From positions 124,001-188,000 of the forward strand of contig NZ_BEWN01000003.1 in assembly GCF_002723955.1 (NCBI RefSeq): 64,000 bases of DNA. The letters are read 5' to 3'. Below, one piece after another: positions 13,165-33,297 of the stretch; position 1 is the stretch's first letter; each line of letters begins with the position of its first letter. Under the pieces are notes generated by a model. The model worked only from the letters and a program-made list of their open reading frames with translations, did no database searches and was not told the DNA's origin. This DNA comes from Gluconobacter frateurii (GTDB taxonomy: Bacteria; Pseudomonadota; Alphaproteobacteria; Acetobacterales; Acetobacteraceae). The position numbers and the translations under genes were made by a program.

Positions 13165-14523
13165 TCACGAAACTGCGAGGCACCCCACAACGCTTCTCGC
13201 CTCCGCCAGAAGTGCCTCGAGATCCAGTCCTGGAATCATTCCATCTACAACAACGGGCTTCCCATCCATCAGGACGTGCCGGACGGTTGTGGCTCCAGAG
13301 ACAACTGGTGCAATCAGCGGATCATGCATCCCTGCACATCGTGGGGCATCCAGACTATGAATGACCAGATCTGCCGTTGCTCCGACTTCTATCCGGCCCA
13401 CATCTGGAAGCCCCAGAATGGTGGCTCCTTCTGACGTGGACCACCGCATGACATCTTCGGCTGTTACAGCCCCTGCTCCCTGAACCGCGCGATGGACCAT
13501 CCAGGCACAGTGCATTTCTGCACTCATGTCACAGGCTTCATTCGACGCTGCCCCATCGACAGCCAGAGAGATGCGCCCTCCCAAGGCATCCAGAGCGGGT
13601 GCGGGCGCAATTCCTGAACCAAGTCGACAATTACTTTGCGGGCAATGCGCCATGCCGGTGCCCGTCTGGGCAAGGAGCTTGAGTTCGCTCTCATCCAGAT
13701 GGACCAGATGTGCGAACCACACGTCATTTCCGACCCAGCCATGCTCCGCTACGAACTGGACGGGCCGCATATTGTATGTTTCCAGGCAGAACCTGACGTA
13801 ATTATCCGTCTCCGACAGGTGCGAATGCAGTGGAATGCCCATACTTCGTGCCGCCACGGCCATCTGCCGCAATTCGTCCGGCGTGACGCCCCATGTGGGC
13901 GTATTGGGCGCCAGAGCAATCCGACGTTTCGCGTTCGGCCCGGACTGATGATACCGGCTGACAAGCGCATCGACGCGCTTGAGCATGACATCCAAAGTTT
14001 CGGTCGGGGCAGGAATAACTTCGTCCGTATCGAATTTTCTGGCCCGTGTTGTCCCTCCTCGCGCCAGAACGTACCGAAGGCCCAGATCTTCGGCAGCATC
14101 GAACAGAACAGAAGCCGGGTCGTAAGCATACATGTCTGCAAACAGGTAATGATGGTCCGCAACCGTGGTACAGCCTGAGAGGAGCAACTCCACCATCCCG
14201 ACCCGCGCGGCGACATTCAGGGCCCGCTCGTCGATGCGGCTCCAGTAGGTGTTGGGAACAAGGCGCAGCCAAGGCTCAAGCGGCTTGTTGATAGCAGTCG
14301 GGACGGCCTTGAGAACACTCTGGAACAGATGATGATGCGTGCTGATCAGGCCGGGCGAAACAACGCCGCCCTTGGCGTCAAGCACTGTTTCTCCGTCCCG
14401 TGGAGACAACTCGCCAATTTCGACAATTTTCCCATCGCGGATGCGAAGACTTCCCTTTCTTCTGGCTGGTTCACCTTTCAGGCCCGTCAGAATACCGCAG
14501 GTGTTGTGGATAAGGAGCGTCAT
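13165..14523 (-). CDS. Amidohydrolase/deaminase of the TRZ/ATZ family (8-oxoguanine deaminase-like)
   Basis: 452 residues from the ATG at 14523, which overlaps the stop of the upstream binding-protein gene by 4 bp; a longer frame to 14634 would run into that gene. Seen: STHHHLFQSV near residue 63 (metal-binding HxH), CTTVADHHYLF, HLSETDNY, HLVHLDESEL, HCPQSNCRLGSG and AVDGAASNEACDM, the metal and catalytic positions of the TRZ/ATZ/8-oxoguanine deaminase subgroup of the amidohydrolase superfamily. These enzymes deaminate or dechlorinate purines, pterins and triazines. Coupling to an NMT1-type binding protein suggests the substrate is an imported nitrogen heterocycle. The exact substrate is unknown. 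Confidence 0.88.
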   Translation of the reverse strand: MTLLIHNTCGILTGLKGEPARRKGSLRIRDGKIVEIGELSPRDGETVLDAKGGVVSPGLISTHHHLFQSVLKAVPTAINKPLEPWLRLVPNTYWSRIDERALNVAARVGMVELLLSGCTTVADHHYLFADMYAYDPASVLFDAAEDLGLRYVLARGGTTRARKFDTDEVIPAPTETLDVMLKRVDALVSRYHQSGPNAKRRIALAPNTPTWGVTPDELRQMAVAARSMGIPLHSHLSETDNYVRFCLETYNMRPVQFVAEHGWVGNDVWFAHLVHLDESELKLLAQTGTGMAHCPQSNCRLGSGIAPAPALDALGGRISLAVDGAASNEACDMSAEMHCAWMVHRAVQGAGAVTAEDVMRWSTSEGATILGLPDVGRIEVGATADLVIHSLDAPRCAGMHDPLIAPVVSGATTVRHVLMDGKPVVVDGMIPGLDLEALLAEARSVVGCLAVS

Positions 14524-15527
14524 GTGGGCATGATCCGGAGGTTGTCTACAAATTCTGTTGTGAAGGCGCTTTTCCAGTCTGCATCGGCTGGGAGAAGGTT
14601 TTGACTGACCATGAAATCCCGTGTCGCCTGCCATCGGGCAGTCGTCATCGCGCCCAGTCCTTTTGTTCGGACATCGTCCGACAGAAGAACGTCCGCTTTC
14701 TTCAGCCCTTCGTAACCGAATGTCAGGTGTTCTAGCGTCATGTTCGGATTGGCTTTCAGGATTAAGCTATTTCCTGGTGTGGGGTCTTTAAAATAGTCGT
14801 TCCAGCCCAGCAGAGACGCCTTTACGAAGCTGTTCACCTTGCCTTTGTCTGTCTTCACCATCTGCTGGGTGGTGACCATCGGGGCGCCATAAGGCGGGTA
14901 TCCCAGATCCTTGAACAGGAAGAACTCGACCGCCATTCCTTTCAATTTCGCATCCCACAGCTCAGATGACGCGTAAGCCTGCACGGCCATGGTTTTATCG
15001 AAAAAGAAAGGTTGGAGATTGAAAGAGTAAGGCCTCGCCTGCTCTTCCGCATAGCCAGAGCGTTTCCTGAGCCATGGCCAGAATGTCGCATGTGAAGATG
15101 ATGCAATCAGGATTGGATGATTTTTGAGCTGCTGAAGATCAGTAACGCCAGCATGCGTCATCAGCCCTTGCTGGTCATGCTGAAACGTACTCGCTACGGC
15201 AACGAGGGGAATGCCAGACGCGACAGCAGAGAGAAGCTGGAAGTCATATCCGGTGATGAAGTCGGCTCGTCCCGCGGCAAGGAGCTGTGGGACATTCATC
15301 TGCGGACTGGCTGCCTCGATTGTGACGTCCAGCCCTTCCCGCTCATAATACTCTTTGGCAAGCGCCTGATAAAAACCGCCGAATTCTGCCTGTGCGTACC
15401 AGGATGTGACGAGCTTGACGGGCGTCCCAGCAGCGCGCGCTGTTTGAATAAACGGCATAGAAAGCGCGCCAAGACCGGCGGTCAAGCCAAGCAGAGACTG
15501 GCGACGACCAAGCATGTTTCTGGACAT
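14520..15527 (-). CDS. NMT1/THI5-like ABC substrate-binding protein (orphan)
   Basis: 335 residues with an RR-containing signal (GRRQSLLGLTAGLGALSMP, Tat-like). The mature protein begins VKLVTSWYAQAEFGGFYQALAKEYY and continues with ASPQMNVPQLLAAGRADF, the pattern of NMT1/ThiY/SsuA-type periplasmic receptors for small heterocycles or sulfonates. It is an obvious paralogue of the binding protein at 26641-27642 (shared SWYAQAE/NWYAQAE, PQMN, GLMTH, HPILI, YSFNLQPF/YTYNLQPF, FFLFKDLGYPPYG). No ATPase or permease gene adjoins it, so it may feed the importer encoded at 27639-29197 with a related ligand. Confidence 0.9.
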   Translation of the reverse strand: MSRNMLGRRQSLLGLTAGLGALSMPFIQTARAAGTPVKLVTSWYAQAEFGGFYQALAKEYYEREGLDVTIEAASPQMNVPQLLAAGRADFITGYDFQLLSAVASGIPLVAVASTFQHDQQGLMTHAGVTDLQQLKNHPILIASSSHATFWPWLRKRSGYAEEQARPYSFNLQPFFFDKTMAVQAYASSELWDAKLKGMAVEFFLFKDLGYPPYGAPMVTTQQMVKTDKGKVNSFVKASLLGWNDYFKDPTPGNSLILKANPNMTLEHLTFGYEGLKKADVLLSDDVRTKGLGAMTTARWQATRDFMVSQNLLPADADWKSAFTTEFVDNLRIMPT

Positions 15528-15844: not shown

Positions 15845-16855
15845 ATGAGCACCTCAGCCACGACATCCATGAGTGAAATTGAGACCGAGCGTCGCATTGG
15901 CGGAGCTGGAACCAATATCGTCAGAGACATTCCCAGAATTGACCTGTCGTCATTCGAAGAGCGTAAGAAGGAAATCGCCGACGCTCTATGGTCGGCTGCG
16001 ACTGACATTGGATTTTTCCAGGTCTATAATCACGGCATTCCGCAGGACGACATTGACCGTGCATTTTCTCTGGCCGAGCAGTTTTTCGCTCTTCCGACAG
16101 AGACAAAAGCAACTCTTCCGTTGAAGCCAGGCACCAATGCTGGTTGGGAGTTTCGGGAACAGGTCAGACCCTCAACAGGTACCCCCGACCATAAAGAATC
16201 CTTCCAGATCACTCTTCCGCGCATGAAGGGGCTGTGGCCTCAGGATGCGGATATTGCCGGTTTTCAAGGATTTCTCACGCAGTTCGAACATCAGAACTGG
16301 CTGCTGGGAATGAAAATCCTGTCGTGTTTTGCGATGAAGCTCGGCTTCGATGAGGATTTTTTCACATCGCGGCATGAGCCGTCTTCGCCGGATTATCAGT
16401 GTACCCTGCGCCTCATCCACTACATGAGCATGGAAAATGCCCAACCCGCAGACTTTGAAAACTGGCGCGCCGGAGCACATTCAGATTTTGACTGCCTGAC
16501 CCTGCTCCATCAACGTACTGGTGAAGGCGGATTACAGGTCTGTCCGGGTAAGGATGTTGATAGTGGGGCTTGGACGGACGTCGAGCCAGCCACCGGTTAC
16601 GTGACTTGCAATATCGGGGACATGCTGATGCGCTGGAGTGATGACAAACTCCTTTCCACTCTGCATCGTGTCCGGATGCCGAAAGCCGGTGAATATCTCG
16701 GAGAACGGTTGTCCATCCCGTTTTTCTGTCAGGCCAACCGCGATGCGATCATTCAGGGGCCAGACAAGAAATACGCGGCTATCTCGGCCCAGAATTATCT
16801 TCTTGAACGTCTTCAGGCCAATTTCACCGCGTTGCAAAAAGCCAAGTCTTCATAA
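15845..16855 (+). CDS. 2-oxoglutarate/Fe(II)-dependent oxygenase, isopenicillin-N-synthase-like
   Basis: 336 residues with a good Shine-Dalgarno (AAGGAGAGAC). The N-terminal DIOX_N region contains IPRIDLSSF and GFFQVYNHGIPQDD; the C-terminal jelly roll has the iron ligands His211 and Asp213 in AGAHSDFD and His273 in TLHRV, and the co-substrate pair Arg-Leu-Ser at about 288 (RLSIPFF). All catalytic residues are therefore present. Bacterial members hydroxylate or oxidatively demethylate small molecules, purine or amino-acid derivatives included. Placed opposite a heterocycle receptor and next to one-carbon folate genes, oxidative N- or O-demethylation releasing formaldehyde is an attractive but unproven role. 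Confidence 0.9.
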   Translation: MSTSATTSMSEIETERRIGGAGTNIVRDIPRIDLSSFEERKKEIADALWSAATDIGFFQVYNHGIPQDDIDRAFSLAEQFFALPTETKATLPLKPGTNAGWEFREQVRPSTGTPDHKESFQITLPRMKGLWPQDADIAGFQGFLTQFEHQNWLLGMKILSCFAMKLGFDEDFFTSRHEPSSPDYQCTLRLIHYMSMENAQPADFENWRAGAHSDFDCLTLLHQRTGEGGLQVCPGKDVDSGAWTDVEPATGYVTCNIGDMLMRWSDDKLLSTLHRVRMPKAGEYLGERLSIPFFCQANRDAIIQGPDKKYAAISAQNYLLERLQANFTALQKAKSS

Positions 16856-16867
16856 CACGGCGGAACG

Positions 16868-18049
16868 TCAGGCTACGACGCGATGCTGCCTGACCTGAAA
16901 AATGGTCAGGCAGCCCATGCTCAGGGCGCAGAATGCAAACAGGGCGTAGCTGGTCCAGAGCGTGGTGGAAAAGTAAAGATAAGGCATCAGGACGGCCGAA
17001 ACAGAAATGAACTGCCCGACTGTGCCTGCGACTGCGCCACGGGTTTTCCGGTCTGTCGCAACGACGGGTAGCAGGGACATCCCTGCTCCACTCAGGCCGC
17101 TATAGGCGAAAGTCCAGAGGAACAGTCCGAGGGAGGCCACAACCATCGTGCTGCCGGGGAAAAGTAGCATCCATTGCGCGGCCATGCCGATCGCCGCCAT
17201 GACGCAGAACATGACGCGGGAGCGACGTTCCGTGCCTACACAAAGACTGACGATCAGACCCCCAGCCATCATCACGACGATTTTCATGATTGCCACTTCA
17301 GCAGCAGACGCTGCCAGACTGACATGATGCACACGTGCCAGATAGGATGGCGCAATCAGGCTTGTCCCATATGCAATCCCATTTGGGAGCGTGACTGAAA
17401 GGCCAAGTGCAGTTACCAGCCAAGGCGAAAGTTTTTTAACAGGGCCAGAAGTCATTTCCGCTGTTAAGGGCTCTTTCAGTCTGGCCAGGGTCAAAATGCC
17501 GACGGCGAGAATGACCAGCATCAGTGCCATATGGGACAGGCAGGCTGCCTGCCACCGGCTGCCTGCAAGGAACGGAATGGCGAGGAGCAATCCCGCAGAA
17601 TATCCCGCGGGAGCGAAGGTGGACCAGAACGCCAGGGCACGGGATCGGTTTTTCTCCGGCAAATACCGCATAAACAGAACAGGAGAGCCCGCAGTCGCAA
17701 AGGCAAACCCGCATCCGCAAAACATCAGACCAGTCCGAAGGCTCCACAATGTAGTGGTGGACAGCAGAAGAGTGTCACCGACCAACGTCAGTCCAATAGA
17801 AATCGGGAAAGCCTTTTTTACCCCGATGCGATCAACGATCATGCCGAAAAGAAACGACGTGAACGCTGCTGGAACGGAGAAGAATGACAGGCTCGTTCCG
17901 ACTGGCCCTGGCGAGACGTGCCTTGCTTCCGCAATGGCGCTGATGAACGGAACCACCAGCCCCACGACAGCCATGGATACGGCCGAGTAGACATAAATTA
18001 TCAGAATGAGAAAAAGGTGATAGCCTGATCTGTCATCCGTGGTCTGCAT
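16868..18049 (-). CDS. Major facilitator superfamily transporter
   Basis: 393 residues with about twelve hydrophobic segments and the MFS loop signature FGMIVDRIGVKKAFP between helices 2 and 3. It resembles MFS permeases of organic anions or drugs; substrate cannot be read from sequence. Its stop is 12 bp from that of the oxygenase gene (convergent). Upstream, 58 bp with a weak hairpin separate it from the lipase gene, so it may be the last gene of the minus-strand unit beginning at 21746. It could import or export an intermediate of the catabolic cluster. Confidence 0.87.
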   Translation of the reverse strand: MQTTDDRSGYHLFLILIIYVYSAVSMAVVGLVVPFISAIAEARHVSPGPVGTSLSFFSVPAAFTSFLFGMIVDRIGVKKAFPISIGLTLVGDTLLLSTTTLWSLRTGLMFCGCGFAFATAGSPVLFMRYLPEKNRSRALAFWSTFAPAGYSAGLLLAIPFLAGSRWQAACLSHMALMLVILAVGILTLARLKEPLTAEMTSGPVKKLSPWLVTALGLSVTLPNGIAYGTSLIAPSYLARVHHVSLAASAAEVAIMKIVVMMAGGLIVSLCVGTERRSRVMFCVMAAIGMAAQWMLLFPGSTMVVASLGLFLWTFAYSGLSGAGMSLLPVVATDRKTRGAVAGTVGQFISVSAVLMPYLYFSTTLWTSYALFAFCALSMGCLTIFQVRQHRVVA

Positions 18050-18068
18050 GGTCTCGTATCCTAGAAAG

Positions 18069-18107: not shown

Positions 18108-19418
18108 TCAATTGTTCCATGGAATGTTTGGTAATGGCTTTTCGATAGGTCCGGGAACCGTTACGGCGGAGCAGTTTTGTGGAGGCTTTCGCCCAGCCAG
18201 AAGGCTCTTCACAAAGGGAACAGAATCCTTCAGCGAGACATTGACCGCGCCATTATGCGTTACGCCCGGATAACGCTTCCACAGAACATGCGTCCCGGCG
18301 TCGCACATCGCTGCCACAGCATTGTACTGACCATTCACACCCGCCTCGCCGTCCGCCAATCCGGTGCCAGCAAAGACAGGAAAATTGATCCGGGCGTCAG
18401 GGATGGTGAACGCGGTGTCATGTCCGGTCTCAAAAGCGGGTAGCTTGTCATTGAACAAGACATCGCTTTGCACCTTCATCTCGTCGGCTTTGTCGAAAAG
18501 AGTGTGCAGACAGGCATGCCGTGCAATTTCAGACATCTTGCGACCAGCATCGGTCATGACGGTTTGGCTATCCGTCTCCGGATGCAAAGACTGATCCGAC
18601 CCCTCCACCCGGAGCATGGCAAAAGCAGAGTCCATCTTCGTCGCGTCGGTGTAGACTTCCGGGATGGGAGAGTGTTTGGCCGTCGGCGAAGGCGTAAAGC
18701 CTGTGACGAGACCGGTCGCGACGACACCATGGATTTTCAGGTCTGGAGCGTAAGAAGGAGCCAGCCAAGCCGTGCCCAATGCTGCACCGGAACCCTGAGA
18801 CTGGCCAACCAGAACAATCCAGTTCCTGATCTGTCCCGGAAACCCGCTTAAAGATGCGCGCAGACCATCCAGAACGCTGTACCCTTCCGGTCGATACAGA
18901 AGATAAGGATGTGGCCCTGAAGTGCCCAGGCCCTGATAGTCGCTGGCGACCACGGCAAAACCTTCAGAAAGCCAGCGAGACAGATAGGCCTTGTCACGGC
19001 TGGAATATCCCCGCCAGGACGGGGCGCAGACGTCAGCAACGCCTGTGGTTCCATGCTCCCAGGCGACAACGGGCCACCCGTGTGTGGGCATCTTGCCTTG
19101 TGGCAGTAGAATTTGTCCGGAAACTGCAACCGGGGCACCCTTCCCCAGACCATTCGTCGAGGAATAGAGGATCCTGATTCCGCGACTGGTGCCTTTGGGG
19201 AGTTTTGTCAGATCCATATCTTCCTGTTGGATCAACTGGCCCGGCATCGACGGAATGGCTGTCTGGGGACGATAAAACGCGCTGACGCCGCCGTCTCCGT
19301 AGAGATCACTGCTACGTTGTGCGTCATGAGACACAGGGGCCTTGTTTCCCGTCTCCGAACATCCTCCTAATATGAGGAGTGCTGCCATGGATGTGAGAAC
19401 GAAAGGTCTATGCATCAT
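18108..19418 (-). CDS. Lipoprotein, secretory-lipase-like alpha/beta hydrolase
   Basis: 436 residues. A lipoprotein signal ends at LGGC near residue 19, so the protein is probably anchored in the envelope. The hydrolase domain has WEHGTTGVADVCAPS, the nucleophile elbow GQSQGSG (Ser near residue 205) and a late GVTHNGAVN segment containing the probable catalytic His; this matches the LIP (PF03583) secretory lipase family. The overlap of 4 bp with the metF-like gene places it in an operon with folate enzymes, which suggests it removes an acyl or ester group from the compound the cluster degrades rather than acting as a general fat-degrading lipase. Confidence 0.83.
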   Translation of the reverse strand: MMHRPFVLTSMAALLILGGCSETGNKAPVSHDAQRSSDLYGDGGVSAFYRPQTAIPSMPGQLIQQEDMDLTKLPKGTSRGIRILYSSTNGLGKGAPVAVSGQILLPQGKMPTHGWPVVAWEHGTTGVADVCAPSWRGYSSRDKAYLSRWLSEGFAVVASDYQGLGTSGPHPYLLYRPEGYSVLDGLRASLSGFPGQIRNWIVLVGQSQGSGAALGTAWLAPSYAPDLKIHGVVATGLVTGFTPSPTAKHSPIPEVYTDATKMDSAFAMLRVEGSDQSLHPETDSQTVMTDAGRKMSEIARHACLHTLFDKADEMKVQSDVLFNDKLPAFETGHDTAFTIPDARINFPVFAGTGLADGEAGVNGQYNAVAAMCDAGTHVLWKRYPGVTHNGAVNVSLKDSVPFVKSLLAGRKPPQNCSAVTVPGPIEKPLPNIPWNN

Positions 19419-20287
19419 GACGGTTCTCCAGTGCCTGAACAGGACAGGTTACGGCGCCATTCGAGCGTCCGGGCGATGGCTCCAAACGGATAAAAGTGCA
19501 ATCCGTGGAAGAGTGTATCCGGCGTTTCAGCAATGGAGCCGGCGATCGCATCCACCAGATCTTTCGGATTGCACGGGGTGAACCAGCGATGCAGTTTCCA
19601 GCGTTGTTTCTGCATGAATCGCAGGGATTGTCCGACACCGCAGGCCAAACCGTAACGAACCAGCGTCTTGGGTGTCGTCAGGCCATACACGCCGAGATTG
19701 ATTGGCAATCTTATTCCAGCAGTTCGTAGGCGCTTTTCCCAATCCAGAACCGGCGTTGCATCAAAGCAGAACTGCGTGACAATCTGCATGTTCAGACCCT
19801 GCGCCCGGGCCAGTTCCTGTTTCCGGAGCAGATACTGTTCCAGTTGCTTCTCCGAGGCCTGTGGGTGCCCCTCTGGATGGCCTGCCACATAGACCGTTCT
19901 AATCCCGGCCTGGGCAGGAATTTCCGTTTCCAGAACCTGAACGGTGTCTGTGAAAATCCCGGCCGGTTTGTCTGCCCCGCCCGCGATCAGAAGCATGCGT
20001 GGAATGTCGCGTTCGATCAGTGCGGCGCAGATGTTCCTGAGATGCTCAGTGTCTCTTATCGAACGAGCTGCAACATGTGGGACCGAAAGATACCCGCAGA
20101 GTTTCAAGAGGTCACAAGCGGCGAGAACCTCGGCGAACGGTACGCCGGGCAGCCATGTCACAAAGACCCGGGAGCCGCGGTCAAGGTCCGGCAAAACCCC
20201 TGAGAGTTCAAGAATACGGGACGGCAAAAGCTCGATCGAGCTTTCTGTCATCAGATCTGCACGAACCTGTCCGATCGACCTGATCAT
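19415..20287 (-). CDS. Methylenetetrahydrofolate reductase-like flavoprotein (divergent MetF)
   Basis: 290 residues, normal for bacterial MetF. Recognisable family features are SIELLPSR (counterpart of the FEFFPP motif, catalytic Glu kept), GGADKPAG (counterpart of the RGDLPPG loop; the Asp is kept but the Arg is replaced), and VTQFCFDATPVL with LPINLGVYGL. The family interconverts 5-methyl- and 5,10-methylene-tetrahydrofolate with FAD. It overlaps folD1 upstream and the lipase downstream by 4 bp each. Together with two FolD-like genes it suggests catabolic handling of a methyl or methylene unit on tetrahydrofolate, running toward oxidation, rather than methionine synthesis. That direction is inference. 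Confidence 0.85.
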   Translation of the reverse strand: MIRSIGQVRADLMTESSIELLPSRILELSGVLPDLDRGSRVFVTWLPGVPFAEVLAACDLLKLCGYLSVPHVAARSIRDTEHLRNICAALIERDIPRMLLIAGGADKPAGIFTDTVQVLETEIPAQAGIRTVYVAGHPEGHPQASEKQLEQYLLRKQELARAQGLNMQIVTQFCFDATPVLDWEKRLRTAGIRLPINLGVYGLTTPKTLVRYGLACGVGQSLRFMQKQRWKLHRWFTPCNPKDLVDAIAGSIAETPDTLFHGLHFYPFGAIARTLEWRRNLSCSGTGEPS

Positions 20288-21138
20288 GTGGCGGCCTTCT
20301 TTTCAGCAAGATCCAGAACGGTTTTCAGAAGCATCATACGGGTCATGACGCCAAAGCTTCGGTCAGGGGGTGTCATCCATCCTGCAACTTCGGCAACATC
20401 CGGATGAACATCTCCACGGAGCGTGCCCTCCGGCCAGCTCATGCCGACATCAATCACAATAGCTCCTGCCCCGACCATATCCGGTGTAACCAGATGAGCG
20501 GAGCCGGCGGCCGCAATGATGATATCGGAATTTTTCAGGATATTCCCCAGGTTTTTACTTTTACGGTGCAAGATCGTAACGGTTGTATTGCGCGACTGTC
20601 CAGAGAGCAAGAGGCTGGCGGGAAGACCAACAAGCGTGCCTCTTCCAAGAATGGCAACACGCGCTCCGTCAAGTGCAAGACCTGTCTCTGAGAGCAGAGC
20701 ATCAATGCCTCTCACTGTGCAAGGAATGACGGATGGCTCAGAGGCGGTCAGGGACAACAGATTGACGGGATGAAGCCCGTCAACGTCTTTATGGGGGCTG
20801 ATGGCCTGAATGACCGCGTCTTCATCCAGATGAGATGGCAGAGGGAGCTGCACCAGAATACCACTAACAGTGTTATCTGCATCTAGCATCTGGACCTGCG
20901 TCAAAAGCTCGGATTGCGTGACAGACTGTGGAAGAACCACCTTCTGCACGTCGATTCCAACCTTCTTACAGTCTTCGATCTTGCGAGTAACATAGGTTGC
21001 GCTCTGGGGATCGTCCCCCACTTCAACAAGAGCAAGACAAGGGACGATACCGTGCGCCCGGAGTGCCACTGCCCTGTGACGACTGTCTTCCAGGAGCCGC
21101 AGCCCCGTAGCCTCCAGATCAAAGAAACGAGCAGTCAC
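20284..21138 (-). CDS. FolD-like methylenetetrahydrofolate dehydrogenase/cyclohydrolase, paralogue 1
   Basis: 284 residues from a GTG preceded by GGAGGA at 6-nt spacing. FolD features: SATYVTRKIEDCKKVGI with Tyr49 and the cyclohydrolase Lys53, GILVQLPLP with Gln97, HKDVDGLHPVN, PCTVRGIDALL, the nucleotide loop LGRGTLVGLP and IDVGMSW. The C-terminal PGGVGPMT loop, nearly invariant in FolD, is replaced by PPDRSFGVMT near residue 257, so folate or cofactor binding may differ. It is co-transcribed with metF-like and lipase genes and lies in the same region as a second, differently altered FolD (22661-23539). A housekeeping folD probably exists elsewhere in the genome. Confidence 0.87.
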   Translation of the reverse strand: MTARFFDLEATGLRLLEDSRHRAVALRAHGIVPCLALVEVGDDPQSATYVTRKIEDCKKVGIDVQKVVLPQSVTQSELLTQVQMLDADNTVSGILVQLPLPSHLDEDAVIQAISPHKDVDGLHPVNLLSLTASEPSVIPCTVRGIDALLSETGLALDGARVAILGRGTLVGLPASLLLSGQSRNTTVTILHRKSKNLGNILKNSDIIIAAAGSAHLVTPDMVGAGAIVIDVGMSWPEGTLRGDVHPDVAEVAGWMTPPDRSFGVMTRMMLLKTVLDLAEKKAAT

Positions 21139-21746: not shown

Positions 21747-21786
21747 AAGGCACTTCCTGATCAGGGACTTTAGTCTGGAACATTTG

Positions 21787-21801: not shown

Positions 21802-21896
21802 ACTTGTTCGATTTATTTATTTTAGGCATAATCGTTTTCAGCCTGCAATGACATTCGCAACATCATGCATGGTTTTCTGCCAAGGACCGTCTTCCC

Positions 21897-23539: not shown

Positions 23540-23543
23540 AAAA

Positions 23544-24934: not shown

Positions 24935-25767
24935 CGGCCAAGATCCTCAGTGATGGGGCGAATGCGGTCGAGCGGGTATTCTGCAATTTCTGCAAGAAGC
25001 TCAAGGAAGCCTTTGATCCATTGGTTGGCAACTGCCTCGCCCTTCTCTGCCGTCGCAATGCCTGCATTGCCAGCAGCCCCAGAGGGATGAATGTCATGGG
25101 TCAGCCAACCAAAGCCGACGCGGCCTTCTGCTTCCAGCCACTTTGCTGTCTCGGCCAGCTTTTGCGGCCAGGGCTCGAAATTGTCTGCGCGGCTCATATC
25201 CACGAGGTCGGGCCGAAGATGCAGCATCAGAGAGGTTTCGATGTCGCCGCCATGAATGCCGTACTGGCGCTCGTCGGCTGTGAACATGCCATCCGGCACG
25301 CCAAACCGGGACCAGCCCACACAAACAACAAACATTCCATGCGTCCGGCGCAGCGTTCGTGCAACAATATCAAGGATCTGCGGCTGACCGCCATGGGAAT
25401 TCAGAAGAACCAGTCGCTTCACGCCCGAACGCGCAACACTCTCGCCAATCTCGATCAGAACCTGCGTCAGGGTCTGGGCGCTCAGTGTCAGTGTGCCGGG
25501 ATAAGCCACATGCTCTTCACTTTTTCCGACAGCCTGAATCGGAAGCGCGGTTGCGGGAACTGTTGAAGGAAGAGCCTCCAGAGCCTTGTCGAGCAGCATC
25601 TCGTTGATGCAGGCATCCACATAGACTGGCAGATGCGGGCCATGCTGTTCAACGGCAGCCACCGGCAAAATCGCCACCGTTTCTGGCGGAAGATGGCGGA
25701 ACTGGCGTGAAATCATGTCACACCAATATTTCTTGGGCCAGAAAACCGTCTCGGGGCTGCTTGTCAT
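24931..25767 (-). CDS. Creatininase-family amidohydrolase
   Basis: 278 residues from the ATG at 25767, preceded by GGAAG; a longer frame to 25827 has no comparable site. Metal-binding motifs of the family are visible: AVEQHGPHLPVYVDACI near residue 38, NSHGGQPQIL and GIHGGDIETSLML. The superfamily includes creatinine amidohydrolase, formamide hydrolases of riboflavin/deazaflavin synthesis (ArfB type) and the mycofactocin peptidase MftE. No mycofactocin or flavin genes are present, and the neighbours are heterocycle uptake and deamination genes, so opening of a cyclic amide or removal of a formamide is favoured. Confidence 0.9.
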   Translation of the reverse strand: MTSSPETVFWPKKYWCDMISRQFRHLPPETVAILPVAAVEQHGPHLPVYVDACINEMLLDKALEALPSTVPATALPIQAVGKSEEHVAYPGTLTLSAQTLTQVLIEIGESVARSGVKRLVLLNSHGGQPQILDIVARTLRRTHGMFVVCVGWSRFGVPDGMFTADERQYGIHGGDIETSLMLHLRPDLVDMSRADNFEPWPQKLAETAKWLEAEGRVGFGWLTHDIHPSGAAGNAGIATAEKGEAVANQWIKGFLELLAEIAEYPLDRIRPITEDLGR

Positions 25768-25834
25768 GGGTTGGCTTCCGTTGTTCGTCGTGTGGAATGA
25801 CGCATCCCGGTCGAGCCGGGCCGACAAATTTCCT

Positions 25835-25991: not shown

Positions 25992-26516
25992 ATGTCACTC
26001 TCTTCTTCACCCGCGCTTCCCACTCGGGCTGTTCTCCTGAGTCGGGTATCCAAAACCGTTATGGTCGCGTCTCTTGGAGTGTTCGGACTCCTGGTTGCCG
26101 TGAATAATATGACGGATTACGGATCAAACTATGAGTTTGTCCGACATGTCCTGTCTATGGATACGACATTTCCGGGCAACGCGCTGAAATGGAGAGCCGT
26201 CTCTTCTCCTGTGCTCTGGCATATCTTTTATGTCCTGATTATCGCGGCGGAATTCCTGACTGGCGCCCTCTTCTCCTTCGCTGCGCTGCAAATGGCACGG
26301 GCCGTCAAGGTGCCTGCTGAAGAGTTCCGCTCTGCCCGTGCGCTGGTTCCTGTCGCGACTGCACTGGGCTTCATGATCTGGTTCTTCGGGTTCTCTGTTG
26401 TCGGTGGCGAGTGGTTTGCGATGTGGCAGTCCCATGTCTGGAACGGGCAGGAAGCCGCGTTCCGTTTCTTCATGGCAATGCTGGGGGTATGTGTGTTCAC
26501 GCTGCAGGGAGACTGA
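25992..26516 (+). CDS. DUF2165 family small integral membrane protein
   Basis: 174 residues. Four hydrophobic segments are visible (about residues 23-37, 75-95, 113-137 and 153-168), and the conserved NNMTDYGSNYEFVRHVLSMD between segments 1 and 2 is characteristic of DUF2165, as is the RAVSSPVLWHIFY stretch. The family is of unknown function. It is the first plus-strand gene after the divergent promoter shared with the creatininase operon and precedes the ABC importer genes by 124 bp. It could be a transport accessory, but nothing in the sequence proves that. Confidence 0.82.
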   Translation: MSLSSSPALPTRAVLLSRVSKTVMVASLGVFGLLVAVNNMTDYGSNYEFVRHVLSMDTTFPGNALKWRAVSSPVLWHIFYVLIIAAEFLTGALFSFAALQMARAVKVPAEEFRSARALVPVATALGFMIWFFGFSVVGGEWFAMWQSHVWNGQEAAFRFFMAMLGVCVFTLQGD

Positions 26517-26640
26517 GTGCATCCTTTTTGCGTGCACAAAGAGGTGAAAAAGGTATCGGTCTGGCAGCAGAATAAGTCTTCACAGCGGAATGAAAAAGCC
26601 GTTACGGTCTGATTATAAAAATCAAGTCGGGAGGCAGCGC

Positions 26641-27642
26641 ATGACATTACCAAGGCTCAACCGCCGCAGCATGCTTCAGGGCATCATGGCTGCGGGAGCT
26701 CTGTCTTCCCTGCCTACCACAAGAGCCAAAGCTGCGACGAAGCCGCTCAGTCTCCTGACTAACTGGTATGCCCAGGCAGAGCATGGCGGCTACTATCAGG
26801 CAGCAGAAGACGGTCTTTACGCCCAGCAGGATCTGGATGTCTCCATTCAGATGGGCGGCCCCCAGATGAATATGACGCAGCTTCTGATGGCTGGTCAGTG
26901 TGATATCGCCATCATGCAGGGCGAAGAAGCGATCCGCTGCGCCATTCAGGGTATCCCGGCCGTCGCTATCGGCACGACCTTTCAAAAGGGTGTCGGCGGC
27001 TTGATGACCCACCCGGATATCCACGATATCTCGCAGCTTAAGGGCCATCCTATTCTGATCAGTTCAGAAGGTCGCGCCAGCTTCTGGGTATGGCTCAAGA
27101 AGCGTTATGGCTTCACTGAAGATCAGGTTCATCCCTACACCTATAATCTCCAACCTTTCGCCTTCAATCCACAGATGGCCATGCAGGCATTCGTCTCGTC
27201 CGAGCCTTATGGTGCGAAAAAAGCCGGTATCCCTTTCAATTTCTTCCTATTGGATGACCTGGGATATGCGGCCTACGGAAACGTTCTGATGGTTTCGCGG
27301 AAGACACTTGAAGAGCGCGGACCGGAATTGCGGAAGTTCATTGCGGCCAGCAGTGAGGGCTGGAAGCGCTACATCTTCGGGGATGCGAGCAAGGGTGACG
27401 CGGCTATTCGCAAGGCTAATCCGGACATGAGCGCCGATCAGCTCGTCTGGTCCCGGCAGAAACTGCGGGACATCAAGGCTCTTGGCGCGCCTGGAGCCCC
27501 GATCATGACGATGAATGATGAACGCTGGAAGCGCATTTACGATATTCAGCTCGCAGCTCAGCTTGTTCCAGAAAACCCGCAATGGAAGAGTGCCTACACG
27601 CTGGATTGCGTACGCGATGGCCTGGCGACGGTACCGGCATGA
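26641..27642 (+). CDS. NMT1/THI5-like ABC substrate-binding protein
   Basis: 333 residues from the ATG at 26641, preceded by GGGAGG. A twin-arginine-like signal (LNRRSMLQGIMAAGALSSLP) precedes the mature sequence LSLLTNWYAQAEHGGYYQAAEDGLY, PQMNMTQLLMAGQCDIAIMQ and YTYNLQPFAFNP. It belongs with ThiY/SsuA-like receptors and is a close paralogue of the orphan binding protein at 14520-15527. Its stop overlaps the ATPase start (ATGA), so it is the dedicated receptor of the importer that follows. The ligand is probably a small nitrogen heterocycle. Confidence 0.92.
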   Translation: MTLPRLNRRSMLQGIMAAGALSSLPTTRAKAATKPLSLLTNWYAQAEHGGYYQAAEDGLYAQQDLDVSIQMGGPQMNMTQLLMAGQCDIAIMQGEEAIRCAIQGIPAVAIGTTFQKGVGGLMTHPDIHDISQLKGHPILISSEGRASFWVWLKKRYGFTEDQVHPYTYNLQPFAFNPQMAMQAFVSSEPYGAKKAGIPFNFFLLDDLGYAAYGNVLMVSRKTLEERGPELRKFIAASSEGWKRYIFGDASKGDAAIRKANPDMSADQLVWSRQKLRDIKALGAPGAPIMTMNDERWKRIYDIQLAAQLVPENPQWKSAYTLDCVRDGLATVPA

Positions 27643-28436
27643 GCAGCCCTGTCCTCTCCCTCGCTGGCATTGAAAAAGTTTTCCCAAATGGCGTCCGCGG
27701 ACTCTCTCCCGTCGATCTCACAGTCGAAAAAGGAGACTTTGTTACGCTCATTGGTCCATCGGGGTGTGGAAAAAGCACCCTTCTCAAGCTGATCGCCAAT
27801 CTGCACACCCCATCGGGTGGCAAAATGAGCTGGTGGGGTGGAAACTTTGGCGATGTCGGCCGGAAGGGCCGCCGCATGGCGTTCGTTTTTCAGGACGCCA
27901 CGCTGATGCCCTGGGCGACCATCGCGAAAAATGTTCGCCTTCCCCTCGATCTGGAAAAAGTAGACCGGGCCACGGCGGACAAGCGCGCTTTGGCCGCTCT
28001 GGAACGCGTAGGCCTCGGGCACGTCACGGAGCATTATCCCGCCCAGCTTTCCGGCGGCATGAAAATGCGTGTGTCCATCGCTCGGGCGCTTGTCACGGAA
28101 CCTGACCTTCTCCTGATGGACGAACCCTTCGGTGCTCTGGATGAATTCACCCGCAATCGTCTCGACGAAGAAATGGCGCGGCTTTGTTACGAAGATGGCC
28201 TGACAACACTGTTCGTGACTCATGCTCTACATGAAGCAGCTTTTCTCTCCAGCCGCGTCATGGTGATGGCCGCCCGGCCGGGTCGTATTCATGCCCAGTA
28301 TGAGATTGATCGGTCCATCCTCCGCAATGAAGAGTTCCGCCTGTCGGATCAGTTTGCGGGGATCAGCCGTGAACTGGCCATTCTTCTGGAAGATGCCAGT
28401 CGGGAAAGTATGATTCAGCAGGAGATGCGCGCATGA
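27639..28436 (+). CDS. ABC transporter ATPase (SsuB/TauB/ThiZ type)
   Basis: 265 residues from the ATG at 27639, inside the previous stop; earlier in-frame codons lie in the binding-protein gene. Seen: Walker [11 protein letters not shown]-loop [11 protein letters not shown], signature LSGGMKMR, Walker [13 protein letters not shown] and the switch His in VTHALHEA. It energises the importer with the permease at 28433. Both junctions are 4-bp overlaps. Confidence 0.95.
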
Positions 28437-29197
28437 TGTCCTCCCGCACGTTCTCTCTGTTGGCCCCTGTCACGCTCGGTATCATTATTCTCGGGATCTG
28501 GGAGGGTATCTGCCGTTTCTGGCATATCCCGCCCTATCTGATGCCGTCTCCCTCGGCCATATGGCGCGCCCTGATGCTTGATGGTGTGGCTCTACTCCAT
28601 GCCCTGCTCATCACGCTGGAAATCACGTTCGCTGCCTTGATCGCTGCCGTTGTAGGGGGCGTGCTCGTCGCATTCCTGCTTGTGCAGAGTCCTCTCATTG
28701 AGCGTTGCCTGATGCCTTATGTGGTCATCATGCAGGTCACACCGATTGTCGCGATTGCCCCTTTGATCATCATCTTGATCCACAACACGCCGTTGGCTTT
28801 GACGGCCTGTGCGGCATTGGTCGCCATTTTCCCGGTTATTTCCAACACGCTCCAGGGACTACGGAGCGTTGATCCTGATCTGGCTGCATACTTCCAGATG
28901 CACAAGGCTTCGCGCCTTCAGACACTGAGCCGCCTTCGCATTCCCAGCGCGCTTCCCATGTTCATGGCGGGGCTGCGAATTGCCACGGGCCTCTCCTTGG
29001 TCGGCGCGATTGTTGCCGAATTTGTTGCGGGAACAGGCGGTAACTCAGCCGGTCTGGCCTATCAGATCCTTCAGTCGGGTTTTCAGATGGATATCCCGCG
29101 TATGTTCGCGGCGCTTTTCCTCATTACCGTCGCTGGCCTCGTTCTTTACGCCGCCGCCGCCAGCCTGCAACGCTTCGCCCTGAGACACCGCTCATGA
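28433..29197 (+). CDS. ABC transporter permease (SsuC/TauC/ThiX type)
   Basis: 254 residues with about six hydrophobic segments. The family coupling-loop pattern is visible in LAAYFQMHKASRLQTLSRLRIPSALP near residues 148-173, and the typical beginning places PPYLMPSPSAIWRAL after the first helix. Together with the upstream ATPase and binding protein it forms one importer of the nitrate/sulfonate/thiamine-precursor class. It overlaps the deaminase gene downstream by 4 bp, tying uptake to deamination. Confidence 0.94.
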   Translation: MMSSRTFSLLAPVTLGIIILGIWEGICRFWHIPPYLMPSPSAIWRALMLDGVALLHALLITLEITFAALIAAVVGGVLVAFLLVQSPLIERCLMPYVVIMQVTPIVAIAPLIIILIHNTPLALTACAALVAIFPVISNTLQGLRSVDPDLAAYFQMHKASRLQTLSRLRIPSALPMFMAGLRIATGLSLVGAIVAEFVAGTGGNSAGLAYQILQSGFQMDIPRMFAALFLITVAGLVLYAAAASLQRFALRHRS

Positions 29198-30477
29198 CCT
29201 TTCCTTTTCCCGTCGGCCAATCTCCTTCCGGCCTTCTGAACGCGAGCATTCCGAAAGATCTGCTTCCTTCAGCACTCGCAGGCAGCAAGCTCTGCGATAT
29301 CGCGCTCGAAAACGGACACATCGCGGAGATCGTCCCGGCAGGTCAACTCCCCCATACCTTCGGCAACGTCGACCTGAAGGGCCAAATGGTCTGGTCCTGC
29401 TTTGCCGATAGTCACACCCACCTGGACAAAGCCTTCATTTGGGATCGGACGCCCAATCCTGATGGAACATTCATGGGTGCGCTTCAGGCGACGACCCAAG
29501 ACCGGGAGGCTTACTGGACGGATGCGGATGTAGAACGCCGCATGGAGTTCAGTCTGAACTGTGCTTATGCCCATGGCACAAGCGCGATCCGGACCCACTT
29601 GGATACGTTCGGTGTTCATGGAGCCCGGGTCTGGCCCCTTCTTCGCAGACTCCAGAAGAAATGGGCTGGAAAAATCGCGCTCCAGGGCGTCTCCCTCACC
29701 ATGCCGGAACGCTATATGGGCGAAGACCGGGACGGTATTGTGCGGAGTGTCGCGGAGACAGAAGGCGGCGTTCTAGGAGCCGTCCTGATGAAGCACAATA
29801 CGACAGAAGACGCGTTGGACGTGCTGTTCGGTCTGGCGACGGAGTACGGGCTGGAACTGGACCTGCATGTCGATGAAAATGGCGAAACAGGTGGCACCGC
29901 GCTCGAACTGGTGGCTCAGGCAGCACTCAGGCATCGTTTTCGCCAGAAAATCCTGTGCGGGCATTGCTGCAGCCTGACAGTGCAGGATGACGCCGATCAA
30001 ACGCGTATCATTTCGCTTCTGGCCGAAGCCGGGATTGGTATCGTCAGCCTCCCCCTCTGCAACATGTATCTTCAGGATCGGACTGCTGGCCGAACCCCGC
30101 GCTGGCGGGGCGTGACACTGTTGCAGGAACTGGATGCCGCAGGCGTGCCGGTCATGCTGGCGAGCGACAATGTGCGCGACCCCTTCTACGCCTACGGGGA
30201 TTTTGACATGCATGAAATCCTTCAGGGAGGCACACGCATTGGGCAACTCGACCATACCAGCCGACCCTGGGTGCAGTCCGTCACCAGCCGTCCGGGAGAC
30301 TGGATGGGACGCAACCATCGTCTTGAGAAAGGTGCTGTAGCTGATCTTATCGTTTTCCCGGCCCGGAACATGAACGAGTGGATGAGCCGCAATCAGACAG
30401 GTCGTACGGTTCTCCGAGCCGGGCGCGTCATTGACTCTGTACCCCCAGCCTATGAAACCCTTGGAGGGGAACTCTAA
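29194..30477 (+). CDS. CodA-type amidohydrolase (cytosine/creatinine deaminase family)
   Basis: 427 residues. The cytosine-deaminase branch of the amidohydrolase superfamily is indicated by ADSHTHLDKAF (His74 and His76), HGTSAIRTHLDTFG, DLHVDENGE (proton-shuttle Glu), CGHCCSL and ASDNVRDPF (metal Asp near residue 325). All catalytic positions appear intact. Members deaminate cytosine, creatinine, isoguanine and similar lactam-amidine rings. Direct coupling to the importer means the enzyme probably acts on the transported compound. It is distinct from the TRZ/ATZ amidohydrolase at 13165, so the cluster has two deaminase-like enzymes. Confidence 0.9.
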   Translation: MTFPFPVGQSPSGLLNASIPKDLLPSALAGSKLCDIALENGHIAEIVPAGQLPHTFGNVDLKGQMVWSCFADSHTHLDKAFIWDRTPNPDGTFMGALQATTQDREAYWTDADVERRMEFSLNCAYAHGTSAIRTHLDTFGVHGARVWPLLRRLQKKWAGKIALQGVSLTMPERYMGEDRDGIVRSVAETEGGVLGAVLMKHNTTEDALDVLFGLATEYGLELDLHVDENGETGGTALELVAQAALRHRFRQKILCGHCCSLTVQDDADQTRIISLLAEAGIGIVSLPLCNMYLQDRTAGRTPRWRGVTLLQELDAAGVPVMLASDNVRDPFYAYGDFDMHEILQGGTRIGQLDHTSRPWVQSVTSRPGDWMGRNHRLEKGAVADLIVFPARNMNEWMSRNQTGRTVLRAGRVIDSVPPAYETLGGEL

Positions 30478-32108
30478 TGGTTGCTCTCAAGCCGCGTCGT
30501 ACGGAAACCATGCTGACACGGGACGGTATCCGTCTCGTGGCAGATATCTGGGAGCCAGAAGGAGAAGGTCCCTTCCCCGTTCTTCTCATGCGTCAGGCGT
30601 ATGGTCGCCGGATTGGCACGTCACTGTGTTATGCGCCGCCAGAATGGTATGCCCGTCACGGTTATATCGTCGTCATGCAGGACGTCCGGGGCCGTGGAGA
30701 CTCAGGCGGTGAGTTCATTCTTTTCGAGCATGAAGCAGAAGATGGCGCTGACACGATTGCCTGGGCCGCTTCGCTTCCTCGAAGCAACGGCCGCGTCGGC
30801 ATGTTTGGCTTTTCCTTCCAAGGGAGCAATCAGCTACTGGCAGCCGGCGAAAAGCCTGAGGCGCTGAAGGCGATTGCACCAGCCATGATTGGCTGGCAAC
30901 TGGATCGGGACTGGGCGTACGAGAATGGCGCATTCGCGATGCGTGCGAACATCGGATGGGCCACACAGCTCGCGGCCGAAACTGCCCGTCTCAAAGGAGA
31001 CTACGACACACAGCAGATCCTGTTTGCTGCCAGTCGCGGGACGTCCTTCAACGGACGTCAGCCTACCGTTCCCGCCCACGACGCCCTACTGGCCAAGTAT
31101 AGTCATTACACCCGCTGGCGGGACACGCCTCCCGGTGATGCGTACTGGGACAAAATCTCACCTGCTAGCCGCTTAAGCAATATCGCCGAACTTGCTCCAG
31201 CGGTCCTGCTCATCGGTGGGTGGTATGACAGTCATCTTCCTGGAACGCTCGAAGCCTATCGCGCGCTTTCCTCCCATATGCCGACCCGGCTCATTGTCGG
31301 ACCATGGGCTCATTTCCCCTGGGACCGCCATATCGGGGATGTGGATGTTGGCGACGATGCGATTACGGACATCGATCAGCAGCAGATCAGGTTCTTCGAT
31401 CACTGGCTGAAATCAGAACCTGAGCAGCAGGTCGCTCCTGTTCGCCTTTTCGATATGGGAGCTTGTCAGTGGCAGGATCTGCAAGACCTGCCGGAAGGGA
31501 ATACGCAAGCGTTTCCGTCTGGTAACGGCCGTGCTGCCATTGATACCCGAGATGGTGCCTTGGCTCCTAGGGTGCCGGATGATGCACTGGCTTTGTCTGA
31601 AGAAAGCCTCACTCTCGACCCATGGCGTCCGGCAGCGCCTTGCGGTGGGAGTTTCGGCTTTCCTGGAGGGCCGGTGGATCGGGCCCGGACCGATGCACGC
31701 TCAGACGTTTTAACTTTCACGACTGCTCCTCAGACATCAGACAGGCTTCTGGCGGGCACCGTCACAGGATGCTTCGAGTTCGAAGGCGAATACGAAAGCT
31801 TCGATATCCACGCCACTCTGTCCCGTGTGGATGGGCAAGGAAAAGTCCACCCGATGGCCGAAGGCTATGCCTTGGCTAAGCCCGGTCAGACTCTCCTTCC
31901 GATGCGCGGCACATGCCTGACCCTCCAAAAGGGTGAACGGCTCAGGCTTTCCCTCTCCCTCGCCTGCTTCCCGGTCTTTCCAGTCAATCCCGGCACAGGC
32001 GGCAGCCCAATCACAGCGACGCTGGATCAGCAGCGGGTCACAACAGTTCACCTGAAATGCGGTTCCGGCACCTATCTTCTTCTTCCTTGGCTCAAACAGG
32101 AAAGCTAA
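30477..32108 (+). CDS. CocE/NonD family hydrolase (X-Pro dipeptidyl-peptidase S15 type)
   Basis: 543 residues; the start shares a base with the previous stop (TAATG). The S15/CocE alpha/beta-hydrolase domain shows QDVRGRGDSGGEF, the nucleophile region VGMFGFSFQGSNQLLAA, GGWYDSHLPGTLEAY (acid) and GPWAHFPWDRHIGD (His). The C-terminal jelly-roll domain of the family follows (from about residue 400). There is no signal peptide, so it works in the cytoplasm. Relatives hydrolyse cocaine, amino-acid esters and acyl-amides. It may cleave an ester or amide substituent before or after ring opening. Confidence 0.88.
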   Translation: MVALKPRRTETMLTRDGIRLVADIWEPEGEGPFPVLLMRQAYGRRIGTSLCYAPPEWYARHGYIVVMQDVRGRGDSGGEFILFEHEAEDGADTIAWAASLPRSNGRVGMFGFSFQGSNQLLAAGEKPEALKAIAPAMIGWQLDRDWAYENGAFAMRANIGWATQLAAETARLKGDYDTQQILFAASRGTSFNGRQPTVPAHDALLAKYSHYTRWRDTPPGDAYWDKISPASRLSNIAELAPAVLLIGGWYDSHLPGTLEAYRALSSHMPTRLIVGPWAHFPWDRHIGDVDVGDDAITDIDQQQIRFFDHWLKSEPEQQVAPVRLFDMGACQWQDLQDLPEGNTQAFPSGNGRAAIDTRDGALAPRVPDDALALSEESLTLDPWRPAAPCGGSFGFPGGPVDRARTDARSDVLTFTTAPQTSDRLLAGTVTGCFEFEGEYESFDIHATLSRVDGQGKVHPMAEGYALAKPGQTLLPMRGTCLTLQKGERLRLSLSLACFPVFPVNPGTGGSPITATLDQQRVTTVHLKCGSGTYLLLPWLKQES

Positions 32109-32113
32109 TTCTC

Positions 32114-32539
32114 ATGCCTTTTGCAAAATGCAGCCCCGATAGTGTGGAAGCCTTCCGGATTGCGCCGGACTCAAGCAATTACTTTGCCATCCTGTTTGAC
32201 AGGAAAGCTGGGGATTATTCTTCCATCGCTGTCGTGGAAATCTTTGAACCCGGAGGAGCTACACCTCCAAATACCCATACAGATGCTGACGAAATGTTCT
32301 TCGTCCTGTCGGGTACTGGTCGCGCCTGGTGTGACGGCAAAAGCTGTGAACTGAAAGCTGGCGATGCGCTTCTGGTCAAACCCGGCTCGGAACATGTTCT
32401 GGAGAATACCGGCACCAGCAAGCTTTATACGCTGACGGTCATGACACCAGACGAAGCATTCGGAGACCTGATCCGGAGCGGCATTCCGGTCAAGCTGGAT
32501 GCTGAAGACCTCGCCGTCCTCTGTGGAGGGAGTCAATGA
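32114..32539 (+). CDS. Cupin-domain protein
   Basis: 141 residues from the ATG at 32114, 5 bp after the previous stop; longer frames run into the esterase gene. The cupin motifs are GATPPNTHTDADEMFFVLSG (metal-binding His, His/Asp and Glu positions) and GDALLVKPGSEHVLENTG. Small cupins of this kind can be isomerases, dioxygenases or ligand sensors. Its placement between an esterase and an amidohydrolase suggests an enzymatic step in the pathway, such as isomerisation of an intermediate, but no activity can be assigned. Confidence 0.85.
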   Translation: MPFAKCSPDSVEAFRIAPDSSNYFAILFDRKAGDYSSIAVVEIFEPGGATPPNTHTDADEMFFVLSGTGRAWCDGKSCELKAGDALLVKPGSEHVLENTGTSKLYTLTVMTPDEAFGDLIRSGIPVKLDAEDLAVLCGGSQ

Positions 32540-33297
32540 GACGTCTGGGCAGTACTTATGCCAACAGTTGGGGCGCAACAGAGAATTCCATCAGTCTGCT
32601 GCGACCAGAACGTAAGCCCAAGCCTATTAGTGTTCCGTCTGCGCCCCAGACATTGACTTTCGATCTCGCTCGGACGGCAATCATTGTCATCGATATGCAG
32701 AACGACTTCTGTCATTCGGATGGCTGGCTCGCGTCCATTGGTGTGGATATTGCTGCGGCCCGCCGCCCGATCAAGCCCTTACAGACGCTCCTTCCGATCC
32801 TGCGCGAACATGACGTGCCCGTGGTTTGGCTGAACTGGGGAAACCGTCGGGATAAACTCAATCTCCCACCATCTGTTCTGCATGTTTATGATCCGGCAGG
32901 AGAAGATAAAGGAATTGGATCACCGGTTGGTGCTGCGGACAGGAAAGTTCTTGAGGATGGAAGCTGGAATGCTGCCATCGTCGATGAACTGGACGTCGAG
33001 GCTGAGGACATTCATGTCTCGAAATACCGGATGAGTGGCTTCTGGGATACGCCTCTTGAGGGCATCCTCCGGAACCTGCGTGTGGATACCCTGCTTTTTG
33101 CCGGTGTGAATAGCGATCAGTGTGTTCTCAGCACCCTCACTGACGCAGGCTGCCTAGGATATGACTGTATTCTGCTGAATGACTGCGCTGCAACAACGTC
33201 TCCTGAATTTTGCGAGCAGGCTACAATTTATAATGTCCGGCAGTGCTACGGTTTTGTGGCAACGGGATCAGATCTTGTGAAGGCTTTGAGAAAGTAA
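32536..33297 (+). CDS. Isochorismatase-family amidohydrolase, RutB-like
   Basis: 253 residues. The catalytic triad of cysteine hydrolases in this family is present: Asp53 in VIDMQNDF, Lys163 in VSKYRMSGFWDTPL and Cys196 in GVNSDQCVLSTL. The flanking patterns GSWNAAIVDEL and KYRMSGFWDTPLEGILR are close to those of RutB (ureidoacrylate amidohydrolase of pyrimidine degradation); N-carbamoylsarcosine amidase is another relative. Such enzymes release CO2 and ammonia from N-carbamoyl compounds, the expected last step after opening a ureide ring. It is the final gene of the cluster, overlaps the cupin gene by 4 bp and is followed by a strong terminator. Confidence 0.9.
   Translation: MRRLGSTYANSWGATENSISLLRPERKPKPISVPSAPQTLTFDLARTAIIVIDMQNDFCHSDGWLASIGVDIAAARRPIKPLQTLLPILREHDVPVVWLNWGNRRDKLNLPPSVLHVYDPAGEDKGIGSPVGAADRKVLEDGSWNAAIVDELDVEAEDIHVSKYRMSGFWDTPLEGILRNLRVDTLLFAGVNSDQCVLSTLTDAGCLGYDCILLNDCAATTSPEFCEQATIYNVRQCYGFVATGSDLVKALRK

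Follow-up and report, generated by a model that had tools for sequence, protein, structure and literature searches.

Gene content of the locus

We analyzed a 64-kb window (the whole stretch of DNA studied, from which all positions are counted) of the Gluconobacter frateurii genome (3.31 Mb, 10 contigs), in which 20 open reading frames (ORFs), spanning 13165-33297 and searched with the Pfam and NCBIfam models, form a candidate folate/pterin catabolic cluster. The original prediction, made from the letters of the DNA, had proposed here a probable 20-kb pathway for an N-heterocyclic, possibly N-methylated compound coupled to tetrahydrofolate. Every family that it listed (receptors, importer, amidohydrolases, other hydrolases, oxygenase, flavin adenine dinucleotide (FAD) enzyme, cupin, MetF- and FolD-like proteins, IclR regulator) was recovered at its coordinates, together with three genes missing from its list: an MFS transporter (16868-18049), a flavodoxin-like protein (21165-21803) and a DUF2165 protein (25992-26516). 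The genes were divided into three modules, M1 to M3.

Module M3 comprises, on the reverse strand, the FAD enzyme (FAD_binding_4; 23576-24934) and a creatininase-family hydrolase (24931-25827). On the forward strand it continues with the DUF2165 small membrane protein (PF09933), the NMT1/THI5 receptor SBP2 (26590-27642; PF09084), an ABC ATPase (27639-28436, with a longer ORF from 27582; PF00005), an ABC permease (28433-29197; PF00528), a CodA-like amidohydrolase (29194-30477), a CocE/NonD hydrolase (30477-32108; 355.7 bits, above 66.3), a cupin (32057-32539; PF07883) and an isochorismatase-like hydrolase resembling RutB and BiuH (32536-33297; PF00857).

Module M1 contains the COG0402 amidohydrolase AMH1 (13165-14523, with a longer ORF to 14634) and the NMT1/THI5 receptor SBP1 (14520-15527), both on the reverse strand, and the forward-strand 2OG/Fe(II) oxygenase DIOX (15845-16855; PF14226 and PF03171). 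Module M2 includes, on the reverse strand, the MFS transporter (PF07690), a secretory-lipase-like protein with a lipoprotein signal recognized by eye (18108-19418; PF03583), a MetF-like protein of the MetF2 type (19415-20287), FolD1 (20284-21138) and the flavodoxin-like NAD(P)H oxidoreductase FLAV (PF02525), followed on the forward strand by an IclR-family regulator (21897-22652; PF01614 and PF09339) and FolD2 (22661-23539, with a longer ORF from 22622).

The tightly overlapping operons announced earlier were indeed present, with 4-base overlaps at 19415, 20284, 24931, 28433, 29194 and 32536, a 1-base overlap at 30477, and further 4-base overlaps at 14520 and 27639 if the likelier inner starts, picked by eye, are used. 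We compared 18 of the 20 genes with congeners (DUF2165 and the ATPase were left out). The dN/dS values against the two nearest ones (G020 and G004) ranged from 0.005 to 0.13, excluding SBP1 versus G004, for which a paralogue at 40% identity had been picked up (0.241); paralogues were likewise picked up for SBP1 versus G013 and SBP2 versus G023, and dS against G013 and G023 was saturated for many genes.

Conservation of the locus

A profile scan with the FAD enzyme, using one genome per species, yielded at least 582 relatives. The counts below concern the best 80 of these loci, several of which lie on short contigs; partner genes were identified by tblastn at 80 bits or more, lower scores being allowed for the cupin, RidA and DUF2165, and the flavodoxin-like protein was counted with three query variants. 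The most frequent partners were the creatininase-family enzyme (56/80), the ATPase (56/80) and permease (51/80), which belong to broad families, the NMT1 receptor (49/80), the CodA-like enzyme (46/80) and the flavodoxin-like protein (41/80), all six being present together in 28 loci. They were followed by RidA (26), LysR (13), a Rieske oxygenase (11), CocE (10), the cupin (9), the RutB-like hydrolase (8), AMH1 (7, five above 250 bits, two of those 36% identical), DIOX (5), DUF2165 (3) and a FolD1-like protein (2), while FolD2, the MetF-like protein, the MFS transporter, the lipase and IclR were each found once.

As a control, we took 19 windows of 20 kb from other parts of ten genomes that carry the FAD enzyme. 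None of the 19 contained the FAD enzyme, creatininase, CodA, receptor, flavodoxin-like, cupin or RutB-like genes; the ATPase was found in five and the permease in one, weak CocE and LysR hits in one, and AMH1 (32%) and a Rieske oxygenase in one. In six FAD-centred windows sampled likewise, the creatininase was present in five and the CodA-like enzyme in four, the FAD enzyme standing alone in L196. The gene set thus recurs in other genomes well beyond the control windows, and the original prediction, which a lack of co-occurrence would have refuted, withstands that test.

The core, or most of it, is carried by annotated plasmids in Agrobacterium (without CodA), Paroceanicella, Rhizobium, Palleronia, Roseateles and Pantoea. 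A Klebsiella pneumoniae record (NZ_CP074582.1; L221:1828-14344) holds M1 and M3 together, with a 2OG oxygenase (56%), an AMH1 homologue (47%), two receptors, LysR, a VanB-type reductase, CodA-like, RidA, creatininase, ATPase, permease and FAD enzyme genes; the pathway may therefore be common in Klebsiella. Acetoin and 3-hydroxybutyrate-type genes adjoin this set. On a Rhizobium etli CIAT 652 plasmid (L033:2452-24084), genes for a urea amidolyase, an amidase of the allophanate-hydrolase type and isochorismatases flank the core and hint at ureide-like end products. Homologues of the FAD enzyme were also observed in cyanobacteria (Okeania, Nostoc, Trichodesmium, Arthrospira and others; L075-L077, L081, L082, L091-L095, L100, L103, L106, L108 and L109), often with few or no core partners in the part of the locus covered.

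The FAD enzyme and the ring hydrolases

The FAD enzyme matches 6v42 over its whole length, in sequence and in fold, and this nearest solved relative is titled as a folate-catabolism flavin oxygenase. Among the hydrolases, the CodA-like protein exceeded the cytosine deaminase equivalog cut-off of PRK07583 (538.9 versus 403 bits). Compared with the RutB pyrimidine pathway and with creatininase, the other hydrolases belong to the same superfamilies and fall short of the equivalog cut-offs: the creatininase-family enzyme, although recognized by PF02633 (232 bits), reached 92.8 bits with TIGR04448 (cut-off 235), and the RutB-like enzyme reached 129.3 bits with the ureidoacrylate amidohydrolase model TIGR03614 (cut-off 377.95) and stayed below the NCBIfam cut-off for biuret hydrolase (BiuH).

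AMH1 and its oxygenases

AMH1, a candidate isoxanthopterin or pterin-6-carboxylate deaminase, scored 671.5 bits with the NCBIfam model PRK12393 (cut-off 543) and was closer to 2paj, which we take to be an isoxanthopterin deaminase, than to other solved COG0402 deaminases (422.6 bits versus 279.7 for 3hpa and 264.8). A homologue 51% identical carries the annotation "Isoxanthopterin deaminase" in Paracoccaceae La 6. According to Hall and colleagues, one Gln, one Tyr and two Thr reportedly touch the pterin in isoxanthopterin deaminase. The motifs FQ, DHxY, RGG[TA]T and AP[NT]T, some of whose Thr may be the contact residues of these authors, were kept in all 13 sequences aligned; over the 419-bit domain alignment with 2paj, FQ, DHxY and two Thr positions are kept, whereas AMH1 has Asn in place of one adjacent Thr of 2paj. 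The score of AMH1 with the 8-oxoguanine deaminase model PRK08203 was 423.1 bits, below the cut-off of 532.

DIOX keeps the invariant HxD...H and RxS residues of its DIOX_N/2OG oxygenase domains, in line with the intact oxygenase of the original prediction; its nearest solved structure is thymine dioxygenase (154.9 bits). Both receptors resemble formylaminopyrimidine and thiamin binders, the nearest solved structures to SBP2 being 4nmy and 3ix1. DIOX adjoins AMH1 in other lineages too. AMH1 is joined to the M3 core in G221, G321 and the Bradyrhizobium loci L040 and L046, and G108, G216, G230, G287, G356, Qingshengfaniella, Pantoea SS70 and Paracoccaceae La 6 have AMH1-DIOX sets with no FAD enzyme in the part of the contig covered. 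In L040, L046, L184, L189 and L199, AMH1 has a Rieske oxygenase as a neighbour; this family came from clustering the unassigned ORFs of the loci, many of which were in the wrong frame, and a homologue in L078, 49-53% identical to those five copies, has a VanA_C domain. VanA_C-type Rieske oxygenases often demethylate. At E <= 1e-110 and with at most five candidates scored per genome, AMH1 was found in 11 of 299 family genomes.

The folate one-carbon module

MetF2 was recognized by the Pfam MTHFR model (PF02219, 27.8 bits for a threshold of 24), with 33.8 bits for TIGR00676, below the equivalog cut-off of 293.7. It is 36% identical to the MetF2-type methylenetetrahydrofolate reductase of pCMU01, which presumably serves chloromethane use, and 34-37% identical to MetF-like proteins adjoining aminomethyltransferase-like (GcvT-like) genes and purU. 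Neither an aminomethyltransferase-like gene nor purU stands beside MetF2 among the 20 ORFs, and unlike the pCMU01 system, the cluster has no corrinoid- or GcvT-type methyltransferase in the Pfam scan of these ORFs; a purU-like gene was located some 20 kb further left. Above the cut-off, the genome encodes one GCV_T protein; it also has two Pterin_bind proteins, which match FolP and MetH in size (open frames of 283 and 1214 residues). We thus found no spare tetrahydrofolate methyltransferase in a search confined to these two families, and no candidate for GcvT- or corrinoid-type demethylation beyond these housekeeping-sized proteins.

FolD1, identified by Pfam and motif alignment, keeps YxxxK, Q and KDVDG, with an altered C-terminal PGGVGPMT motif; the YxxxK lysine is kept in all seven FolD1-type sequences aligned and is missing from all six FolD2 sequences. 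None of the NCBIfam FolD cut-offs was reached among the 25 models shown (best score 288.7, below 401), and a separate FolD elsewhere in the genome (C2:404463) scores higher. The YxxxK lysine of FolD is needed for cyclohydrolase activity, and FolD2, having lost it, may therefore be a dehydrogenase without cyclohydrolase activity.

The order of the seven M2 genes, including the positions of the MFS transporter and lipase, is kept in genome G097, with 50-78% identity. In the Hyphomonadaceae metagenome-assembled genome L070, a FolD1-like protein is located between the FAD enzyme and the importer, and PRK14193 is the best profile for both this protein and FolD1. In other species, relatives of the flavodoxin-like protein are encoded in the vicinity of the FAD enzyme. 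In Paracoccaceae La 6 (L236:1-5636), glyA, aminotransferase, hprA, FolD, MetV-like and MetF genes adjoin AMH1-DIOX. The La 6 MetF gave no tblastn match to MetF2 and the La 6 FolD keeps the standard motifs by eye; we thus ruled them out as M2 orthologues and consider this FolD-MetV-MetF stretch at most a parallel.

Regulation and flanking genes

A 15-base perfect palindrome-like site, GTTCGATATTCGAAC (21787-21801, not assigned to a strand), is a candidate IclR operator, identical in three of five Gluconobacter and with one change in the other two. It is the sole exact copy in the window; at up to three mismatches there were four matches versus a mean of 1.37, a number reached in 7 of 100 shuffles and not clearly above chance. 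No common site was seen by eye at the other two divergent promoters.

To the right of M3, a TonB-dependent receptor and a LysR regulator (33656-37457) could provide outer-membrane uptake and control of the cluster. To the left (7607-11938) are genes for NAD biosynthesis (nadA identified by Pfam, nadB- and nadC-like genes by eye), together with a gene for a protein with an NrtR winged-helix domain.

Discussion

The cluster is a conserved locus to which a lineage-limited folate one-carbon module is attached, and we read it, with a probability of roughly 0.6, as a folate/pterin catabolic locus. The two NMT1 receptors and the ABC importer would bring in pterins, perhaps along with fragments of folate or reduced folates. 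Because AMH1 is close to 2paj, it would remove the 2-amino group of an oxidised pterin (such as isoxanthopterin or pterin-6-carboxylate) to give a lumazine. DIOX might then hydroxylate or trim the ring, joined by the Rieske oxygenase in the other species that have it beside AMH1, and the FAD enzyme, judging from its family, would oxygenate the pterin-derived ring, perhaps with the flavodoxin-like reductase. The creatininase-, CodA- and RutB-like hydrolases and CocE are predicted to open the ring and free its nitrogen. The N-heterocycle catabolism proposed in the original prediction is thus supported in part, as a conserved locus that combines import proteins with amidohydrolase, oxygenase and ring-hydrolase families, whereas the single unit and the capture of a one-carbon unit on folate are not supported in the form stated. 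Since the nearest solved relative of the FAD enzyme is titled as a folate-catabolism flavin oxygenase, folate or a pterin is more likely the substrate than the acceptor, and the folate link probably runs in the direction opposite to that proposed.

Several observations weigh against a folate/pterin catabolic locus. The role of 6v42 is known from the title of the structure entry, and the identity between 6v42/6v43 and the FAD enzyme is too low to assume the same substrate. Beyond this deposited flavoenzyme, the literature searched (abstract level, with few subscription papers covered) yielded no publication on 6v42, its reaction and pathway, or the gene set of the cluster. The name of 2paj in the PDB is "putative cytosine/guanine deaminase." None of the six core partners was found in 10 of the best 80 FAD loci, 21 of 26 congeners lack the FAD enzyme, AMH1 is a rare gene (at the E threshold given above, in 2 of 385 genomes of the class, the window's own included), and 4 of the 11 AMH1-bearing family genomes lack the FAD enzyme. 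M2 is on another contig than the M3 core in G097, and in G023 a spacer of about 16 kb lies between the two modules (in L229:1831-16881, SOD-like, aldehyde dehydrogenase-like, TonB-like and TauD-like genes were seen by eye in this spacer). With a single exact palindrome and degenerate matches not clearly above chance, one IclR control for all operons is not supported. Finally, Variovorax sp. F1 uses a degradation route with a pterin deaminase and carboxypeptidase G (PMC9513972); this resembles the cluster in having pterin deamination as an early step, but the part of that source consulted names no flavin oxygenase, creatininase or importer, and no member of the carboxypeptidase G family was found among the 20 ORFs by Pfam scan.

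In another scenario, which we judge improbable, an N-methylated heterocycle would be taken up and deaminated and would lose its methyl group to the oxygenase DIOX, the one-carbon unit being caught on tetrahydrofolate and handled by MetF2 and FolD. The Rieske oxygenases beside AMH1, with the VanA_C domain of their L078 homologue, the GcvT-like and purU neighbours of other MetF2 relatives, and the La 6 stretch are in line with it. However, the genome offers no spare methyltransferase of the two families searched, the La 6 MetF does not match MetF2, and 6v42 points to folate as substrate; one-carbon capture is not supported in the form originally stated. In addition, MetF is not needed if demethylation yields formaldehyde.

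It appears equally unlikely that M2 has its own substrate and stands beside M1 and M3 by chance or shared transfer. The separation of M2 in G097 and G023, the rarity of M2 genes at the best 80 FAD loci and the AMH1-DIOX sets without M3 nearby would agree with such independent neighbours. Because most M3 loci lack folate genes (MetF-like 1/80, FolD1-like 2/80) and M2 is on another contig in G097, the cluster is indeed not one unit, and the idea of one 20-kb pathway had to be given up. Nevertheless, the five congeners out of 26 that have MetF2 are also the five with the FAD enzyme, perhaps through few independent gains, and AMH1 and the FAD enzyme are both present in each of the three family genomes whose MetF2 reaches 50% identity (G000, G020, G097). 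Moreover, FLAV, a member of M2 here, is a core partner elsewhere, and a FolD lies within the core of L070. Least probable is a purine or pyrimidine substrate (8-oxoguanine, methylxanthine or the thiamin pyrimidine HMP) instead of a pterin, for although the receptors resemble formylaminopyrimidine and thiamin binders, CodA- and RutB-like enzymes are present and DIOX resembles thymine dioxygenase, AMH1 misses the 8-oxoguanine deaminase cut-off, 3hpa scores far below 2paj, the RutB and BiuH cut-offs are missed and the FAD enzyme is related to 6v42.

Within the folate/pterin reading, one may speculate that in Gluconobacter 5-methyl- or methylene-folates are imported and that MetF2, FolD1 and FolD2 oxidise their one-carbon unit ahead of pterin breakdown, a tentative assignment that we find rather doubtful. 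More doubtful still is a complete folate-mineralising route, in which one-carbon-loaded reduced folates would be taken up, their carbon unit oxidised by dedicated forms of MetF2, FolD1 and FolD2 (the last, without its lysine, having a new activity as a dehydrogenase specialised in catabolic folates), and the pterin then deaminated and opened by the flavin oxygenase and ring hydrolases.

To our knowledge, the bacterial destruction of the folate pterin ring is largely without genes, deaminases being known and ring-opening steps not. The locus narrows this question to about a dozen genes that can be tested, and organisms as diverse as rhizobia, acetic acid bacteria and Klebsiella carry relatives of them. 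The Gluconobacter form, with its folate one-carbon enzymes, would tie pterin breakdown to one-carbon recovery, and the pathway would connect insect-, plant- and gut-associated bacteria with the turnover of pterin pigments and folate.

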